A DNA stretch of 64,000 nucleotides from Myotis daubentonii. Lineage: Eukaryota; Chordata; Mammalia; Chiroptera; Vespertilionidae. Position numbers and translations under genes: made by a program. Under the pieces are notes generated by a model. It had not been told where the DNA came from and ran no database searches. It saw only the letters and a list, made by a program, of their open reading frames with translations. Where the stretch lies: positions 62,818,787 through 62,882,786 of the forward strand of contig NC_081842.1 of the NCBI RefSeq assembly GCF_963259705.1, read 5' to 3'. Positions 755 through 62,429 of this stretch are shown here, one piece after another (positions within the stretch are counted from its first letter, which is position 1; every line of letters begins with the position of its first letter).

Positions 755-959
755 AAAAAATATGTTTTATTATTGGTTTTAGAAGAAGGGAGTGGGAGAG
801 AAAAACGTCACTGTGAGAGGGTAACATCAATCTGCCCCTTGCATGCCCCCTTCTGGGGATCAAGCCAGCAACCTGAGCATGTGCCCTGTCCAGGAACCAC
901 ACCTGTGACCTCTAGGTTCATGGATCAATGTTCAACCACTAAGCCACATGGTTTAGGGC
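755..959 (-). mobile_element. Ves-type SINE
   Basis: A tRNA-derived SINE read on the minus strand. It shows the usual reversed order: an A/T-rich tail with 'tgttttattattgg', a purine-rich gagaga block, 'ccttctggggatcaagcc', 'gtgccctgtccaggaac', and the reversed tRNA-like head ending 'aagccacatggtttagggc'. Several substitutions from the family norm suggest an older copy. A 116-codon open frame crossing it is a by-product. Target duplications are not clear. Confidence 0.85.
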
Positions 960-19760: not shown

Positions 19761-21849
19761 CTGAATGGAAGGATTAAATGAGTTAAAGGAAGTGAGAGTT
19801 GGGGCAAGAATGAAGGTAAAGGAAAATGTGAACTTGCAGGTGTGAGACTCAGAAGAGAGTAAGCTAGAATGGTTTGGACAGTGTAGATGAGATAACTCCA
19901 TATGGTCATCAAATCCCATATTCTCAGAAAGTGTTTCCCACTTGCCAGCTGCCTTAACAGCTGGCACAGTTCAGTCCAAGGAAGCATTAATGGCAAATGG
20001 GCAGGAGAATTTCCCAGGTTGAAAACCAGAAACTCATTGCTGACATATCAGGTGTTCACGGAGGCCTTTTAGGATGCCTCTGGGCACCAACAGCTCCTTA
20101 CCTTCCCCTAATATATGAGGAACTGAAAATGTGTAGAAAAATAACATGGTATCTCTAAAGCTGTGAAGTCGTGTGTACAAAAGATGTCACAGCAGAAATA
20201 TTCTCAGCAGTCATGGCTGCAACCAGTGTGAGAAAACCTTGAAAGTCCACTTTCAATTTCCTCAGCCCATGTGCCTCCCTTAATCCATCCATGAACTACG
20301 CAAAAAATCCTGCCATGAAAAAACTACAGGAGGGAGGAAAGAGCAACCTTCCCTAGCCTCAAGTGACCTAATAACATGGAAAGTGCACTCACCCAATGGC
20401 CAATAAATCTCCCTGGCTAAAAGGATGAGCAACAAATGAATTTCTTGCTTGACAACACCACAGAGCAGAACCCTTTAATATGTGTGGAGCCATTTCTGAG
20501 GAACCTTCACCTTCCTTGACATGCCACTATTGGATGCTGGTGATCCATGTTGTCACTGGGCTGCATAAAGGCTGGTCTAGACTGGTTTTTAATTAAATCC
20601 CCCTAAAGGATGGTCAAATCGACCTGTCTTCACTGAAAAAGTACTTGTGATCCAGCGCCGTGAGAATACATACTATCCCATGGCCTTCCTTTCCCCCCAG
20701 AGTCTGTCTTATTGCATCGCTGAACAATCTCTCTCTCTCTCTCTCCCTGGCTTTTGAGCAGAAGCGTGATGGAAACAGAGAATGAAAACCCAGTGTAGTT
20801 TCCATAGCAACATTTTTAGAAAGAAAGAAATGAAAGAGGGAAAAATGTGGAACTCTACTACTATGAATTGGGTTCTGAACATCAGTGAATGAGTTGCCTG
20901 TTCTAAGCAGTCAGTGCTAAGGTTTGCTTATGTAAGAGCAATATAGTATCAGGATTCCTTTAATGCCAGATTCTTCCAGTAGGGGGTGGAAACATAAATA
21001 GCATGAGGCCAAATGAAGGAAAACAGCCACACATGTGCCTGCTCCCTCTGATCTTGGCCACACTGTTAATAGTAAAGTCTGTGAATATTTATTTTGATGT
21101 CCTGGTACCTTCACTTACTTTGGGGAAGATGGCATATAAAATGTTTGTTACCTTGCTTCAAAGAGCTTATTAACATAAAGAGCAAACAAATATTGAATAA
21201 AACTTTCCAAGCAAAGCAATGCACAACACAACAGTGAAGTGCAAGCTGAAAGCAAATACTCTGAGTGAATATAGATGAAAGAACTCAGCACTGAGTGGTG
21301 TTAATTTGGAAGCCTCCACAGAAAGGGCTTGTGGTCTTGTAAAAGGGACGGAACATGAACTTGAGGGTAACACAAAGCAGCGCCCTCTCCCCGCAAGGTG
21401 GAGTAGAACAGAACGCAAAATTCATAAACTTGCAGGTGAAATAGGTAAAGTGTTCCTGGGGCAGTAGGGTGAGCTTGGTTCTCCTACAATATTTTCTCTA
21501 TGAGAGATAAGAAAAAGGATTGGTAGGGATTGGTAGGAAGGCAGGTACATGTTTAGTAAAGAGGAGAGATGTTTTAATTTCATTTTAAAGGCCATGAAAA
21601 GTTCTAAGTTGTCACTGGGTCACTCAGGGGTCTTGTGTAAGAAGTGCTTAAGGAAAATGACATGGGGCAATGTACAAATTCCTTGGCTGGAGGATAGACA
21701 ATGCTAGAGACAGAGAGAAGAACCCAAAGTGAATTGCATATGCCTAGTCCTTTTGTACGGCAGGAGAATCTGGTCATTCTAATAATGGCAAGGTGGGCAT
21801 TAATTCAGTGTTCACTCTAAGATGGGCTTCACATGTGATGATAAAGCTT
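19761..21849. other. Non-coding sequence
   Basis: No gene or nameable repeat. A short (CT)n run sits near 20727-20745. Frames of 60-115 codons overlap at random. Composition is more balanced than in the flanking AT-rich regions. Confidence 0.5.
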
Positions 21850-23189: not shown

Positions 23190-23358
23190 AGTGGGGGTTC
23201 TGGAGGCAGACAGCTCAATTCAAGTCCTGGCTTCACTATTCCTAGTTCTGAGACTTGGGCAGTTACTTACTATACTTCAGCCTTTGTTCCTTCACCGGAA
23301 AAAAATGGGTATTAATAACAGCACCAACTTATACAGTAATTATAAGTAATGTTGCATA
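23190..23358 (+). mobile_element. MIR SINE, left part of split copy
   Basis: Forward MIR: 'gggggttctggaggcagaca', 'caattcaagtcctggcttca', 'gacttgggcagttacttact', 'cttcagcctttgttccttca'. The copy is interrupted at 23358 by a Helitron and resumes at 23606 with 'taaagtgtttaaaacagagt', which is the expected next MIR segment. Confidence 0.85.
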
Positions 23359-23605
23359 TCTATATATATAAAAGTCCACTGACCGAACGGCAGAAAGACT
23401 AGAACCACTGGTCAACCAATCGCTATGATGTGCACTGACCACCAAGGGGCAGACGCTCAATGAAGGAGCTGCCCCCCTAGTGGTCAGTGCATTCCCACAG
23501 TGGGAGCGCTGCTCGGCTGACTAGGATGAACGGTGCTCCCACAGTGGGCTGATCCCTGCAGGCCATGCCTCCACCAGTGCACGAATCTGTGCACCAGGCC
23601 TCTGG
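23359..23605 (+). mobile_element. HeliBat-type non-autonomous Helitron
   Basis: Starts with TC ('tctatatatataaaag') and ends with the hairpin 'gtgcacgaatctgtgcac' followed by 'caggcctctgg', a CTGG end. It lies between a host A and a host T with no duplication, as rolling-circle Helitrons do. It sits inside a MIR whose two halves rejoin exactly across it. It carries no Rep/helicase coding. An internal imperfect palindrome ('ctgaccaccaaggggcag' and 'cccctagtggtcag') resembles paired CTCF motifs but is imperfect in this copy. Confidence 0.93.
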
Positions 23606-27836: not shown

Positions 27837-27878
27837 AAATTCTCAGGCCATCTTGGACCTACCAAGTCAGAAGCACCT

Positions 27879-36900: not shown

Positions 36901-37019
36901 GACAAGGTTTATCTTTTACATGAGATCAGTCTTTCAAGACTGGGAAAGGTGTTTGTTTTATCTAAGTCACACAAACCAGTTCAGACAGTGATGGAAAATG
37001 AATAAACAAGATAATATCT

Positions 37020-37200
37020 TCATATATATATATATATATATTATGCAAAGTGTCCCCTTGGGAGTTCGACCAACTGGGAGTTCAATCACTCACTATGATG
37101 TGTGCTGACCACCAGGGGATGGTGCGGAATGAAGGGAGGCCCTGGCCAGCAGCTGCTAGGGACCCTACCCATGCATATATTTTATGCACTGGGCCTCTAA
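37020..37200 (+). mobile_element. HeliBat-type Helitron, short copy
   Basis: Begins TC plus a (TA)n run, then 'ttatgcaaagtgtcccct' and 'gggagttcgaccaactggga'. Ends with the hairpin 'tgcatatattttatgca' and 'ctgggcctctaa', a CTAA end before host T. About 180 bp, with a large internal deletion relative to other copies. One CTCF-like motif (from 37106) has lost two core bases. Confidence 0.9.
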
Positions 37201-40410: not shown

Positions 40411-40750
40411 TAAGTTTATACCTGCATAGCTATCACCTTCATCAAGAAATAGAACATTACAATTCCTCAGAAGCTATCCCAAGCCTCTGACAGACACTGC
40501 AGCACCCGACCCCCAACGATAAGCATTGTCTACCACCATAGATTTATTTTACCTACTTCGGAAATTTATACAGATGGAGTCATATGTACTTTTTTGCCTT
40601 TAGAATCTTTTGTTCAGTGTTTTGTTTATAAGACTCATCCATACTGTTGTATGTGTCATTGCTCTATAATATTTTTATTATATAAATGTATATTTATTTT
40701 TAAATTCTACTGTGAATGTTCATTTGAGTTGTTTCAGTTTTATGTTATGA
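40411..40750 (-). mobile_element. Old L1, minus strand, left part
   Basis: Antisense old L1 3' region: 'caagaaatagaacattacaa', 'aatttatacagatggagtca', 'ataagactcatccatactgt', 'tttgagttgtttcagtttta'. It is interrupted at 40750 by Helitrons and resumes at 41689. Confidence 0.8.
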
Positions 40751-41186
40751 CTAGAGGCCCCATGCACAAAAATTTGTGCACTCAGGGGGAGGTCCCTCAG
40801 CCCAGCCTGTGCCCTCTCGCAGTCTGAGACCCCTCGGAGGATAACCACCTGCTAGTTTAGGCCTGCTCCCCGGGGGATTGGGCCTAAGCTGGCAGCCCTC
40901 AGGGGATGTCCACTTGCTAGCGGGGAGCAGACCTAAGCTGCAGTCGGACATTCTTAGCGCTGCTGAGGAGGCAGGAGAGGCTCCTACCACCACTGCTCTA
41001 CTGGCAGCCATCAGCCTGGCTTGTGGCTGAGCAGAGCTCCCCCATGTGGGAGCTCACTGACCACCAGAGGGCAGCTCCTGCATTGGGCGTCTTCCCCCTG
41101 GTGGTCAGAGTGTGTCATAGTGACCAGTCATCCTCAGTCTTTCTGCTGTTAGGGTCAGTTTGCATATTACCCTTTTACCATATAGG
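40751..41186 (-). mobile_element. HeliBat-type Helitron, minus strand
   Basis: Reversed 3' end at the left: 'ctagaggccc' then the hairpin 'tgcacaaaaatttgtgca'. Reversed 5' end at the right: 'gtttgcatattacccttt' to 'accatatagg'. GC-rich non-coding interior. Contains a palindrome with a plus-strand CTCF-like site TGACCACCAGAGGGCAGCT (41058-41076) facing a minus-strand TGACCACCAGGGGGAAG (41107-41091). It abuts a second Helitron in the same orientation. Confidence 0.92.
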
Positions 41187-41688
41187 TAGAGGCCTGGTGC
41201 ATGGGTGGGGGCCGGCTGGTTTGCCCTGAAGGGTGTCCCGGATCAGGGTGGGGGTCCCGCTTGGGTGCCTGGCCAGCCTGGATGAGGGGCTGATGGCTGT
41301 TTGTAGCTGGTCACACCCCCTTCAGAGTGGGGGTCCCCACTGGGATTCCTAGCCAGTCTGGATGAGGGGTTGAGGGTTTTCAGGCTGGCCAAGCCCGCCG
41401 GCGACTGAAGCTCCCAGCCTCTCCTTTTTTTCTTTTTTTATTCTGGGATTTATTTACCTTCTATAATTGCAACTTTGTTGCTTAGAATGGAGCTCAGAGC
41501 CGGGCCTCAGCAGGGAGGAAGCTTGGCTTCCTCCATCACTGGAGCAAGCAAGCCTCCTGCTCGCTTCAGCTGCGTGGCTGCCGGATGCCATCTTTGTTGG
41601 CGGTTAATTTACATATCTTGCTGATTAGCCAATGGGAAGCATAGCGGAGATATGGTTAATTTCAATCATTGTCTATTATTAGATAGGA
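41187..41688 (-). mobile_element. HeliBat-type Helitron, second abutting copy
   Basis: Left end 'tagaggcctggtgcatgg' is a reversed 3' end with the hairpin decayed. Right end 'gtctattattagatagga' is a reversed 5' TC end. The interior ('gccatctttgttggcggtta', 'ttaatttacatatcttgctg') matches the subtype at 61.6-62.4 kb rather than its neighbour. Host sequence continues with T at 41689. Confidence 0.88.
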
Positions 41689-42125
41689 TAAACAGAGTTG
41701 CTATGAACATCCTTGCACTTGCATTTTGTTGAATCAGTATATGTACACCCATTGAAAAATAAGTGGTGTTTATGGGTCATAGGGTATGTATATCTTGAAA
41801 TTATTGCCAAACAGGTTTTCAAAGAGGTTATACTAACATTCTCCCACCAGCACAACTACTCCATGTTCTTGCCAACATTTGAAGCATTTGGCTTGTATTT
41901 TGCCCATTTTGTTGGATGTTTTATGGTAACCTGTGGTTTTCATTTTAATATCTCTAATAACTAGAGAGTTTGAGCACTTTTTTATGTTATCAATATTTAT
42001 ATATATCCTCTTTTGTAAAGTTATAGTTGAAGTTCCATGTCTGTTTTTCTATCATCTACCCTGTTCTTATTGGTTTCTGAGAATCATTTACATGTTATGG
42101 ATAAGAGTTCCTTGCCAGGTATACT
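41689..42125 (-). mobile_element. Old L1, minus strand, right part
   Basis: Resumes the L1: 'gttgctatgaacatccttgc', 'tgggtcatagggtatgtata', 'ttgccaaacaggttttcaaa', 'cattctcccaccagcacaac', 'ccatgttcttgccaacattt'. Diverged antisense ORF2 end. The halves flank the Helitron pair without gap or duplication. Confidence 0.8.
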
Positions 42126-45100
42126 TCATGTCATATAAAAAAAATCCATTACAGATGGATTATAGATCTAAATGAGGAAGGCAAAAAGAGCTTAAATAGA
42201 ACACAACAAGTGTTAGTGATAAAATAAATAATTGAATAATTGAACTACATTAAAATGAAAACTGTTCAATAATCTACATTTTTTATCTAGGAAATTTGAC
42301 TAGGATCTTCCTCCTCCTAAATACTTCTCTTCTCTGCCTGTATCTGTGGAAAGATGTCTCACTGAATTCAGAAAAAAGAAAGCAACATGCATTATAAAGC
42401 TTTGTTTTATTTGTAGTTTTATTTGTGTTCATGCTTGGAGAGTTTCTGATCTTAAGAAAATTATTTGGTGAGGTAAAAAAATCAATATCCAGACTATCAC
42501 TAAATTTATAAATAAACCATAACTAATTGAAGTATGAAAATTATAATTTGGAATGATTTATTTTTTCATATATGTATTCTGTTTAAATATAGTTTGGGGA
42601 TTAGAGTTACATAGACAGGAATTTGCTTATTTAACATTAAATTGTTCTTGAATATGGTTAGATTAGTAGACTAGTGCCACTTTTTTTTAATCACGTGTAT
42701 TGGTAGAGAGAACTAAACCCCCATTTCCCTTAAACTCTCTAAATGGGACTATGTTTGATAACTTACAAAGAAGGGAGAAAGCTAAGGTTGACATGAGGCT
42801 TAGGGACAATTTATCCTGTTCCAATAGTGGAATCAAGAATGTAATTCAAAAGCCCTGAAATACAGGATTCAAGAGAATGGAATTGAAGTCTAAACTCTGG
42901 CACTTAAAAACCAGCTGACTTTAGACTGGGTTTATTGCCTGTTTGTGCCAATTTTCCTTTCTTATAATGAGATCATTGTACTTAGAGTCGATCTCTGAGT
43001 TTTAGGTATGTTATTATGGTGAGGGATAATGACATTTTCTTAACTGAACAATAAAGAGAAGACAGTAAAAAAGTGATATTGGAGTGGCCTTTCCTATTTG
43101 CTATAAGATTTTGTTGCTTGTTCAAAGAGCACCTGGAAAAAGAATGGGAAGCCAGGAGCCTACTTTAATTCCTATCCAAGCTACTTGAGGGTTATATGTT
43201 CAGAAGAGGCATTCTGTCTGCAGAGACAGAAGCAGAGGCAGTGACTAAGGGCAGAAGCCCAAGACTAAAGTAGAGAACAGCTGTTTAAACAGCACCCTTA
43301 ATTCACAGCTACTCTACCTAGAAAGAATTAGACGAGCACCTTACATACAGAATTGAGGAATGGGATAGGTTTGGTTTTGTTTATTTGTGATAATGAAAGA
43401 AAGAACATTTACCAATAAACAAAATGAAGGAAAACTGCAAAGAACTGAGAGAAAAATTACAAATCTTCAAAGATTTTCACAAAGATAGCATGGGAAATAC
43501 TATCTCTAATGTCTGGGTTAAAAGAAAAGGGGGATGCAATGAATAATTACAAATGTGTAAGCAGGAGAAACTGTCAAAGAAAAGAAAAAATAGCCCAAAG
43601 GTGAATAAAAAATAAGGGTGAGAGCCTTGGGGCTGAGAGAGAGAGAGAGAGAGCACTAAAAGTGAGGTGGGGATCTAGAAAATGGGAAGAAAAAGTTAAA
43701 GACAGTGCATTTATGAGTCATGCACCATGAACAGAGCAAGTTCCTATCTTTAGGTGAGTAATGATGGATAAGTAGTAGGGGACTGGCATTGCTTATATGT
43801 TAATTATCTTTAAAACTGTCAGGAGCAGCGCTTCTTGTCAGGATCATTTCAAAAGCCCCAAGGCCACTATAAGAAGGGAAAGGAAAAGGAAGCTTTATAT
43901 AGTAGATTGGAGAATTAGGGGTGGAGAGCAGCTTGGGGGAGGGGTGCTGTAAATAGTGGTGTCTCATTAGCACAGTCAAGCTTGGTGCCTGATTAATTAT
44001 GGAGCACTTGATAAACAACGTCCTGAAGTCAGGGAAATCAGGAGAAAAGGTACAGATAATTGAATGGAATTGAAGAACTGGCAGTGTTGAGAGCATCATT
44101 AACATATTTTTGCTGCTGTTGTTCTTCTTGGCATCCGCCCTTGTCACAATTGACTCTGGGCTTCCGCTGCTGCACGTTTGGGTGGGAGCAAGGTAACAGA
44201 CAGGGAAGAATGAGGGCGAATAGAAGCTGCTGTTCTTTATAGAAGCCCAGAGGCCCCTGGGTTTGCAACCACTCCAGTCCTCCTGCATGCTCCCTGGCTT
44301 TATCTCTTTGCATTACGCAGAATTAACTTTTGCCTCAAGCATGTCAATACCCATTTTCTGTCCAAGGTCAGCCTGGGTGTGTAACAACAGTTTGGAAAGT
44401 GGGTCATTTTGGATTGCGTTTAGAAATCTAGTATGTATCACAGGTCCTCTCTGAAGATATCCTTGCTGCTGGTCATCTGCCTGCTACCTTGATTCAGACG
44501 AGTCAAGTTTCTGTTTTAGACAATGTACTAAACATTATGCACATCCAAGGACTGGATAGATATCCTTTGCTTGACACTGTACACATGCTTTAAAAATGTG
44601 AATTTTTTAGTTGTCAGACTTTTTTGTTCCCCTCATAGATATCTGAGCTTTTTAGGAATCTCTGTGTGTCTTTTTTGTTAATACGACTGGCAATAAAATT
44701 CTGAGAGAAAATTTGCAGTACAAGTGCTTTCAGATTAGTCTAGGAGGAAATTTGATGAAAGAAAGCAAGAGGCACAGTCATTTCTTATCTCTCCCTAGAG
44801 GAGGGAAGTGGGTTTACCTAGGGAGCATGTTGTGCTTGTACGTGGAGATTGAACTGCTTTCTGAGACCCTAAATATGTTCTAGGTCACTGGGATATTGCT
44901 CAACATGCTCAGTTCCGCCTGTGGCCTGCAGCAGGGTGGCATGGAGATGGGAGGCCGGACAGAGAATGCCAGGATCTGAGAGGCAGCAGCTGTCTTTGCT
45001 GGCTTTTTAGTGCAGATAATAAAATATCTCAGAGCATCACATGAGGTAGAACTGTTCTATAGAAAACGCTGCCACTTAGGATACTGCCAAGCTTCATCCA

Positions 45101-45475
45101 CCCTAAGTGTTTTTCTCAGTTAAAATTTTCTCTTTTTATTTTTGTTAAAGGAATAGAAGAACCAGTTCAGATTCAATAAAAATTGACCTAAATGCTCATT
45201 AGAACACAAGCTTACTCAGTCTTGCTTAAGATTTATTTTATTTACACAGAAACCACAATAAAACCTTCCTTATACAATAGCCGCAGGACATGGATAAACT
45301 TAGGGTCTGGACTCTAGAGAGTGCTTGTAGGCAAATGGATAGAGAGAGTGTTTCTCAATAGTTTAGTGGTCTTTTCTGGAAAATCTTTATGCTCCATCGG
45401 CTTTGCCTCAGCGCAGAAATTTTGTTTCCATTTGTTTTCCCATCTTTGTAGATAGCTTATTCAAAGATTTTCTTT
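42126..45475. other. Non-coding sequence, nothing named
   Basis: No gene or nameable repeat. It holds the longest open frame of the window (162 codons, minus, 43800-44288), which has no recognisable domain, no codon-like regularity, and overlaps other frames. A short GA run is at 43637-43653. The parts 44050-44450 and 44870-45030 are less AT-rich and look single-copy. Confidence 0.5.
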
Positions 45476-45626
45476 TTTCTTTTTTCTTTTTTTTTCTTTT
45501 CTTTTCTTTTCTTTTCTTTTCTTTTCTTTTCTTTTCTTTTCTTTTCTTTTCTTTCTTTTCTTTTCTCTTCTCTTCTTTTCTTTTCTTTTCTTTTCCTTTC
45601 CTTTCTTTTTTTCTTTTCTTTTCTTT
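45476..45626. repeat. (TTTTC)n pentanucleotide repeat
   Basis: About 150 bp of TTTTC units with some TTC and CTTTC variants. One strand is all pyrimidine. Open frames of Phe/Ser or Lys/Glu across it are artefacts. Confidence 0.97.
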
Positions 45627-47298
45627 AAATATTTCCCTTGCACTATAATATTCCCCTTGGTGTTGAAGCCTGATGTTTCATGATGAAGTTTTTCCAGATA
45701 AATCACACAGTTCTTCCATAGTTACTAGTGGACCAACCAGAGGCTCTAGAATGGTTTGTCTATGAAAACAAGTCAGTCAACTCATCAAACATCTACTGGG
45801 AACAGAGTAACATGCTATATCCTCAGGTCTAATGTGACTGGTACTTGACAAAATGTGTGTATAAAAGTTTAAAAATACCCAATAACCTAGAATATTTTAG
45901 ACTAGCCATTTTATTAATCCAAAATATCCAGACAGATGTCTTGTGATTTATTCTAAACTCTTTAGCTAATAAGACAAGATGTTTGTTTTGTTTTTAATGT
46001 GGTTCTAAAATTCAGGCTTAGCCAGCAGCAACGACTACTTTATTTTTGTTTGTTTGTTCCGGTATTAAGTTTTGGCACTTCACAATTTACCAGGAGGCAT
46101 AGCTCAACAGAGGCTGTGAAATGAAACTTCTAGATTAGTTACATTCATTTTTTGTTGAGCCTACTACTTGCTCCACTGATTTGTTCTAAAGTCCTCATGG
46201 AAATTCCTAGGGCAATGCACATACATTCAGCCCATAACCAGCTTGAACCACTAGGGGGGGAAATGCATGAAAAAATGTTTCTCAAGCCCTGAGTAAAAAC
46301 ACCAGTTCTTTCATAGATTCCTTTTTCAGAAGTTATATATGACACTGATATTATAAATTGGGATTTCAATAGATTACCTGCTAAAGTCATGAGAATAAGG
46401 AGAAAAAGTTCTTGTTTTATTTTTCCCTCCAAATCTTGTCAGGAATTGTGATGAAACATCACCATTAAAATCTGGACAATGACTTTTTGAAAATATATAC
46501 ATTTTTTTCCTGTAAAAGCCTTTATCTTTCTTGAAATTCTAATATATCTAATGAAGTTTTTTTGGTAGGAAAACGGTTTATTCACCAATTATTTTTCAAA
46601 TAATTATTGTTAGTAATAAACCTACATTTTCATATGCTCCTTTCTTACACAGGCTGATCTTAACTCATAGACTGGCATGCTTTCCTATAACTTGATATAG
46701 AAAGATTGCATCTAGTCACTGCTATAATTAAAATGTAACAGATACAAATAGGAATCAAACAATTCCTTCTCACTTTTTATTAATTGTGCATCATAGCATC
46801 ACTTTCATTTGTGAACAATACCTCAGGTACATTAGTTCAACTTAGAGTTACTTAGCATTTTTGAAATTTTCTTTGACTTTAATAAACTCATTTAATGCAA
46901 TTCTTTTTTAAACTCTTGTGTTTACTTCTCTCAGTCTGGGGAAGAAAGTAGTTTAATAGTTGAGACTTAATGAGCATACTTTGGAATTTAAGAATGTAAA
47001 TTAAATTGTTGCTAGAGTTGACATCGTTGAGCCACAACTTGTGGCTATGCTTTGTTAAAGTAAACAATCAGAAGAGAAGAAGAATAGACCATCAGACGTT
47101 TGGATATTTTGTCAACATGCTGTTAAGTTTCCAAATGTTTAGGAAACATCTGGTGTTTGACAATTTTGTTTATTCCCATGGCTGTTTAGTGTTGATTAGG
47201 CACAGAGATGTCCCCTTAACTTGAATAACCCAATAATCTCTTAGAGCAGTAGATTTCATATTGCAAACCAAAATCCATAGTAAGAAACTTATTTTATA
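45627..47298. other. AT-rich non-coding sequence
   Basis: No gene or nameable repeat seen. Confidence 0.5.
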
Positions 47299-48063
47299 CT
47301 AGAGACCCAGTGCGCAAAATTTGTGCACTCATGGGTGGGGGGGGGGCAGTGGGGAGGTTCCTCAGCTCAGCTTGCACCCTCTCGCAGTCCAGGAGCTCTC
47401 AGGGGATGCCTGACTGACAGCATAGGCCTGCTCCCCAGGCCTAAGCCAGCAGTTGGACATCCTTAGTGCTGCCATGGTGGGAGGGGCTCCCCCCCCCCGC
47501 CCCGCTGCCACTGTGCTCATCAGCTGTGAGCCTGGCTTCTGGCTGAGCAGTGCTCCACCCCCATGGGAGCACACTGACCACCAGGGGCCAGCTTCTGCAT
47601 TGAGCGTCTGCCCCCTGGTGTCAGTGCACGTCATAGCAACTGGTTGTTCCACCATCAGGCCAAAAACAGCTCTCTGACATCCCCTGAGGGGATCTCAGAT
47701 TGTGAGAGGGCACGAGCTAGGCCGGGAGACCCCACTGGTACATGATTGGGGCCGGGGAGGGACACAGGAGGTTGGCCAGCTGGGGAGGGTCCACGTTAGG
47801 GTTCCAGGGCATGTCTGGCCTGTCTCACTCAGTCCCGATCAGTCAGACCCCAGCAGCAAGCTAACCTACCAGTTGGAGTGTCTGTCCCCTGGTGGTCAGT
47901 GCATGTCCTAGCAACTGGTTGACCAGTTGATTGTCTGCCCCCTGCTGGTCAGTGCACGTCATAGCAAGTAGTTGAGCAGCCTTCGCATTTCATTAGCATA
48001 TTATGTTTTGATTGGTTGAATGGAAGACCAGGCACTTAGCATATTAGGCTTTATTATATAGGA
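47299..48063 (-). mobile_element. HeliBat-type Helitron, 765-bp copy
   Basis: Reversed 3' end 'ctagagacccagtgcgc' with hairpin 'gtgcgcaaaatttgtgcac' at the left. Reversed 5' end 'ggctttattatatagga' at the right, before host T. No coding capacity. Internal modules recur: the CTCF-like motif occurs four times, one plus (47575-47592) and three minus (about 47625-47607, 47898-47882, 47951-47933). The last, TGACCAGCAGGGGGCAGAC, is closest to consensus. Homopolymer G and C tracts lie near 47338 and 47490. Confidence 0.93.
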
Positions 48064-58165: not shown

Positions 58166-58378
58166 AATATATTTTATTGATATCAGAGAGGAAGGGAAAG
58201 GGAGAGAGAGAGAGAAACATCAACAATGAGAGAGAATCATGGATCAGCTGCCTCCTGCAGCCCCCTACTGGGGATTGAGCCTGCAACTTGGGCACGTGCC
58301 CTGACTGGGAATTGAAAATCAAACCGTGACCTCTGGGTTCATAGGTCGATGCCCAACTACTGAGCTATGCCAGCCAGA
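58166..58378 (-). mobile_element. Ves-type SINE with long target duplication
   Basis: Flanked by an 18-bp duplication with one mismatch, CAATTATAACATTTTTAA (58148-58165) and CAATTGTAACATTTTTAA (58379-58396). Reversed layout: 'atattttattgatatc', GA block, 'gatcagctgcctcctgcagc', 'actggggattgagcctgcaa', head 'gagctatgccagccagac'. A young-looking copy. Confidence 0.95.
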
Positions 58379-61645: not shown

Positions 61646-61730
61646 CTATTGGCTCCGTGCACAAAATTCATGCACAGAGAGAGTGTTCCTCAGCCCGGCC
61701 TGCATCCTCTCCAATCTGGAACACCTTGGG

Positions 61731-61818
61731 GGATGTCCAAATGCCTGTTTAGGCCCGATCCCACTGGATATATACAGGAGCCCTCCTGGATCGGGCCTAA
61801 ATTGGCATTTGGACATCC
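61731..61818. repeat. Long inverted repeat inside Helitron
   Basis: Arms 61731-61761 and 61788-61818 (31 nt each, 29 matching) around a 26-nt loop. Key parts are 'ggatgtccaaatgcc' and its reverse complement 'ggcatttggacatcc'. Weaker versions of the same module occur in the Helitrons at 40.9 and 47.4 kb. Confidence 0.9.
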
Positions 61819-61867
61819 CTCTTGCAATCTGGGACCACTGGCTCAAAACTGCTCACCTGTCTGCCTT

Positions 61868-62164
61868 CCTGATCGCCCCTAACCACTCTGCCTGCCAGCC
61901 CCCAACTTCCCCCTCACCGGCCCTCTCGCCCACAACTGACCCCCTTGCTGGCCTGATTGCCCCCAAATTCCCCCTCCCTGCCAGCCTGCTCTCCCCCAAC
62001 TGCATCCTCCTGCCGGCCTGATTACCCCCAACTGCCCCCCTGCCAGCCTGCTCACTCCCTATTGCCCCCCCGCCGGCCTGCTTGCCCCCAACTGGCCCCC
62101 TTTGTCAGCCTGATTACCCCTAACTGCCCTTCCCTCCTGGCCTGATCACCCCTAACCACCTCTG
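61868..62164. repeat. C-rich minisatellite, about 30-bp unit
   Basis: About nine or ten imperfect units of 29-34 bp, each with 'gcctg', then 'cccccaact' or 'cccctaac', then a C-run. Proline-rich frames across it are artefacts. Confidence 0.9.
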
Positions 62165-62429
62165 CCTTGGCCCTGCCACTATGGCTTTGTCTGGGCAGCG
62201 GCCATAGAGCTGGCTGGGGCGACCAAGGAAGCTAAGGCTCCCACGACCATTCTCCAGCCAACTTGGCTCCATGGCTCCGACCAGCACCGCCATCTTTGTT
62301 GCATCAATTTGCATATTCCCTCCTTATTGGCTGTGGGCGCCACCATCTTAACATGAAGTGAAGGTTAATTTGCATATTATTATTTTATTAGATAGGATTT
62401 AATCCTTACCTCCATACCGGAAGATATGT

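Follow-up and report, generated by a model that had tools for sequence, protein, structure and literature searches.

CTCF sites set the loops of mammalian chromosomes, new sites are known to arise from repeats, and vesper bats have undergone a massive amplification of Helitrons. The DNA transposons MER20, MER91B, hAT-Charlie and HATN9_DR are cut-and-paste elements of hAT type, and in this are unlike Helitrons. CTCF sites are carried by SINEs, with rodent B2/B3, dog SINEC_Cf and opossum MAR1_Mdo being, like HeliBat elements, lineage-specific repeats that multiply a CTCF core word (PMC3368268). The dog and opossum SINEs with CTCF sites carry the core motif alone with no M2, the second motif that some CTCF sites have (PMC3368268). 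These SINEs are, however, retrotransposons with binding proven by ChIP (PMC3368268), whereas the HeliBat case described here concerns a rolling-circle DNA transposon and a head-to-head pair predicted from sequence. Class II elements, like HeliBat, also supply CTCF sites, with MER20, MER91B and hAT-Charlie providing CTCF loop anchors in human (PMC9902604) and HATN9_DR acting as a supplier in zebrafish (PMC9341505).

Two systems resemble the present one through the Helitrons themselves. In Drosophila miranda the ISX Helitron is a family dispersing the binding motif of a chromosome-wide regulator, as here, although the ISX motif serves the dosage compensation complex of a fly (PMC6598467) and the HeliBat motif is CTCF-like. 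Bat Helitrons also disperse regulatory DNA, as here, through the capture of genes and promoters by HeliBats, e.g., HelibatN3 with NUBPL (PMC4778049), although the HelibatN3/NUBPL capture is one of promoter fragments and the word CTCF has no occurrence in the main text of that paper (PMC4778049). CTCF sites borne by transposable elements, those on DNA transposons included, are already established, while for Helitron-borne CTCF sites there was no report among the matches listed in the open-licence PMC literature searched, a scope outside which most subscription papers fall. In the 64-kb window considered here (the whole stretch of Myotis daubentonii DNA analysed), the CTCF-like Helitron observation made in an initial annotation is real and more structured than first described, with function standing as a prediction.

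HeliBat-type Helitrons in the window

Six HeliBat-type Helitron copies (A, A2, B, C, D and E) were identified, together making up 4.5% of the window. CTCF scores throughout are in bits on a hand-entered rendering of the CTCF matrix MA0139.1.

40751..41187, minus strand: element A, non-autonomous HeliBat-type; CTAG end at 40751-40754, 5′ TC reading AC at 41187-41186
41187..41688, minus strand: element A2, another HeliBat-type copy, directly adjoining A head-to-tail; lacks a CTCF-like site; weak profile match at the 3′ end (E=0.047)
47299..48063, minus strand: element B, HeliBat-type; 5′ TC and 3′ CTAG, lying between A and T
23357..23605, plus strand: element C, short HeliBat-type copy; 3′ end altered (CTGG)
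37018..37200, plus strand: element D, a short and worn copy of HeliBat type; position of the 5′ limit uncertain
61646..62397, minus strand: element E, HeliBat-type without the CTCF-like module; best CTCF score 10.3 bits

The copies are assigned to HeliBat on the hallmarks described for the family, rather than by comparison with a HeliBat reference sequence. They were chosen by similarity and reading and a 3′-end profile was then built from the same six, such that the count is not independent of the choice; the profile finds A at 40751, A2 at 41187, B at 47299 and E at 61646 on the minus strand, with C at 23605 and D at 37200 on the plus strand. As the profile was made from our own six picks, with A2 a weak match and the next candidates at E values of 4 or worse, a divergent Helitron copy could be missed. 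A strict Helitron-end pattern matched a 5′ end in the window once (B) and no 3′ end, and profiles were used instead.

The HeliBat hallmarks (TC/CTAG ends, a 3′ hairpin and insertion between A and T) are clearest in B and A. Both 5′-TC and CTAG-3′ are intact in B only, with A keeping CTAG and having AC in place of TC, A2 having TC and a 3′ end worn at the junction, and the 3′ ends of C, D and E being altered to CTGG, CTAA and ATAG, respectively. Two copies were examined for insertion between A and T: in B the base before TC is A and the base after CTAG is T, and in element A the CTAG is followed by T. In element A, a 20-nt 3′ hairpin is followed by 11 nt to the element end, CTAG included, the other copies being placed by alignment only; the HeliBat/Helraiser definition is a palindrome of ~19 bp that stops 11 nt short of the 3′ end (PMC4778049). 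At 183-765 bp the elements are too short for the 1,496-aa RepHel transposase, the absence of which is expected of non-autonomous copies. In Miniopterus, the sister group of vesper bats, Helitrons of the HeliBat kind were sought and none was found except two old mammalian families (PMC4971623).

The initial annotation had the first Helitron at 40751-41186; its location stands, while the 5′ end is at 41187, abutting the second Helitron. A2 and A lie head-to-tail in the same orientation with zero host DNA between them and a CTAG/TC junction about 2 bases short (41180-41195), an arrangement that can be likened to the joined ends of Helitron circles. The region 40740-41700 gave no match in phage and plasmid collections.

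An inverted-repeat module with predicted CTCF sites

CTCF-like sequence is carried by four of the six Helitrons (A, B, C and D), in agreement with the four of six first reported, a count to be read with the profile having been made from the six picked copies and with A2 at E=0.047. In A2 and E the module is absent and a different sequence, alike between the two by eye, lies behind the terminal bases. The module is an inverted repeat of ~60 bp situated ~70-140 nt from the Helitron 5′ end, each arm of which is a predicted CTCF core site, TGACCACCAGGGGGCAG(AC/CT), with a majority consensus from A, the inner module of B and C of GTGCACTGACCACCAGGGGGCAGACGCTCAATGCAGGAGCTGCCCCCTGGTGGTCAGTG. The paired predicted sites are head-to-head with 12 bp between the 19-mers (e.g., in A, 41058-41076 on the plus strand and 41089-41107 on the minus strand).

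41055..41110, minus strand: module of A; facing arms 41058-41076 (+, 20.5 bits) and 41089-41107 (-, 18.6 bits), 12 bp apart
47570..47629, minus strand: inner module of B; arms 47575-47593 (+, 14.7 bits) and 47606-47624 (-, with a one-base deletion, 16.5 bits)
47876..47979, minus strand: two more half-modules of B, in tandem, in the same orientation and 53 bp apart; sites 47880-47898 (-, 17.6 bits) and 47933-47951 (-, 20.8 bits)
23429..23492, plus strand: module of C; the left arm, at 23436-23454, scores 14.0 bits, and the right arm, at 23468-23486, is interrupted by one inserted base
37106-37124, plus strand: left arm only of the module in D, 17.0 bits; hairpin gone

The CTCF-like words found in A, C and the inner module of B form the paired arms of a single inverted repeat, which makes the sites in these copies related by descent. 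The CTCF-like hits in the window are read, from the sequence, as descending from one ancestral module and hence as not independent. The exact 20-mer of the half-site had no match in viral and prokaryote contigs.

Strength of the CTCF match

On this matrix the two arms of the consensus reach 21.4 and 21.3 bits out of 26.1 (p about 3e-8, uniform background). When the columns of the matrix were permuted, 0 of 5000 matrices reached 21.4 bits on the module (mean -0.9, largest 19.8), indicating that G-richness alone is not the explanation. The pattern YGRCCASYAGRKGGCRSYV is matched seven times in the window at ≤2 mismatches, always within Helitrons (expected 0.06, with 0 of 100 shuffles reaching seven), and 11 times at ≤3 mismatches, ten of these in Helitrons (expected 1.53). 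The two sites that headed the initial annotation, 41058-41076 (+) and 47933-47951 (-), are both there, each one mismatch from YGRCCASYAGRKGGCRSYV; among the seven further copies that it listed, six were recovered at ≤3 mismatches, in one case with an offset of a base, and 23486-23468 (-), which has a one-base insertion, was not.

Position weight matrix hits at p<1e-5 fall in Helitrons in 8 of 10 cases with a uniform background, 11 of 16 with the window GC and 6 of 7 with 60% GC. The binomial p for this concentration, 7e-10, overstates the case since the hits share descent and a single ancestral module is what calls for explanation. At least one site at p<1e-5 is kept in all four module-bearing elements on the uniform and window GC backgrounds and in three (not C) at 60% GC. 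Dinucleotide shuffles reached or exceeded the observed best score in 0, 2, 12 and 1 per 1000 for A, B, C and D, respectively, with the module-less copies being ordinary (921 per 1000 for A2, best 1.2 bits; 210 per 1000 for E, best 10.3 bits).

Further motif-like words occur in the window. A CTCF-like site of 15.6 bits lies outside the six Helitrons at 20973-20991 (+). The CTCF-like word TCCCCAG(T/A)AGGGGGC is found at a similar place in two of 10 copies of a tRNA-type SINE, at 58256-58274 (-) and 841-859 (-), scoring 14.5 and 11.0 bits, the copies having been found by similarity and being presumably Ves elements; SINEs of vesper bats may also be carriers of CTCF-like words. Candidate YY1-like words (AACAAAGATGGC..) are present in the 5′ parts of the module-less E (62297, -) and A2 (41595, -), the same scan also matching outside Helitrons at 27855 and 18495.

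Divergence among the copies

Six sites that each differ from the consensus by one substitution have a total score loss of 22.0 bits, against 22.1 bits expected for random single substitutions. Two half-sites were excluded from this summed test for carrying indels (B 47606-47624 and, in C, the right arm), and D was kept out since its 5 differences from the consensus involve a gap. Taken alone, the score loss of D is smaller than in 99% of random sets, which counts against a neutral reading.

Within the well-aligned block, divergence from the consensus is 13/171 in the arms vs 27/177 in the near flanks (p=0.03), with 8/152 vs 22/160 without D (p=0.01) and 6/114 vs 17/126 for A, B inner and C (p=0.05). 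With CpG-prone columns removed the direction is unchanged at 12/165 in the arms vs 17/144 in the flanks (p=0.24), with p=0.12 without D and p=0.14 for A, B inner and C, and in view of these three values arm conservation is not taken as selection. The lower divergence of the arms at least partly reflects their lack of CpG. A first comparison of arms and flanks (13/171 vs 67/312, p=6e-5) was discarded as its flank took in poorly aligned ends. On the whole the copies look neutral in this small sample. What holds of the initial proposal is the dispersal by a Helitron of strong predicted CTCF sites, the CTCF-like word being shared by four of the six copies; a clear sign that the word has been preserved in the copies is lacking.

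Origin and function of the module

The reading that we favor, with a probability of roughly one in two, is that a non-autonomous HeliBat subfamily spread paired near-optimal CTCF core sites, that CTCF can bind the better copies and that most copies decay neutrally. The module was multiplied by copy-and-paste rolling-circle transposition in this window, and presumably genome-wide; in one copy (B) the half-module is repeated in tandem. CTCF would bind the better copies where chromatin is open, and some of the Helitron-borne site pairs are probably bound. The spacing probably admits one CTCF per palindrome in either orientation, such that a copy would halt cohesin regardless of its direction of insertion. 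With the core of the module nearly CpG-free, slow decay and little effect of methylation are expected. Most copies would decay neutrally with few likely to matter to the host, the effect being weak or nil at most loci. In Myotis fibroblasts, H3K27ac showed a very modest enrichment of MIR3, AmnSINE1 and LTR13C_ML only, with Helitron families not named as enriched and CTCF not among the antibodies listed in that study (PMC9446614).

The arms of the inverted repeat, a feature absent from the initial annotation, offer a rival reason for the CTCF-like sites to exist. A hairpin role in transposition is a serious rival, which we consider possible rather than probable: the module would act as a hairpin, of DNA or RNA, to the Helitron's own ends, in single-strand replication, in transposase recognition near the 5′ end or in pausing, with a likeness to CTCF that is coincidental and rarely bound in cells. 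In keeping with this, the arms as single-stranded DNA fold into a strong hairpin relative to shuffles in three of the four copies (z of -4.2 for A, -3.1 for B inner and -5.5 for C; 0.8 for D). Element A has more inverted repeats, among them the pair 40854-40872/40921-40939 (89%), and its full length also folds well (z -4.1). In the bat Helitron Helraiser the left end is required and the 3′ hairpin acts in termination (PMC4778049). However, a hairpin demands no particular sequence, yet both consensus arms fit CTCF at 21 bits; D has lost the fold and kept a 17-bit site, and the module, lacking in A2 and E, is not general to these Helitrons. A search of Rfam gave zero matches in the window at the gathering threshold. 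The hairpin and CTCF readings are compatible with each other.

Capture of a host CTCF site by an ancestral Helitron, followed by its doubling to an inverted repeat via template switching, is a less ready account that we regard as improbable, although Helitrons of M. lucifugus have captured and amplified the promoter sequences of 15 genes (PMC4778049) and a match as near to optimal as 21.4 and 21.3 bits would be in keeping with such an origin. The CTCF match is one event, picked post hoc among many motifs and many transposable element families. That some family simply fits CTCF well by chance among so many families and transcription factor motifs, with no biology behind it, is very improbable in our judgement even with one ancestral module only, with p about 3e-8 per position amounting to ~6e-5 per 1-kb family on two strands and becoming noticeable once multiplied over motifs and families, and with as many as 12 of 1000 shuffles of a single module-bearing element equalling its best score. 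A chance account bears on origin more than on binding, as CTCF may bind accessible sites of this quality however they arose.

Implications for vesper bat genomes

HeliBats of all subfamilies together number >100,000 copies in Myotis lucifugus (PMC4778049). The larger proposition, that HeliBat amplification placed CTCF pairs by the tens of thousands in the genomes of vesper bats, orientation-independent, head-to-head, currently bound and lying behind many vesper-bat-specific loop anchors, seems unlikely on the present sequence evidence; if true, this would be the first rolling-circle transposon rewiring a mammalian 3D genome. A Helitron spreading CTCF sites in pairs and with almost no CpG would amount to a natural experiment, with many dated insertions of an orientation-indifferent pair, such that CTCF orientation and the birth of loops would become directly testable.
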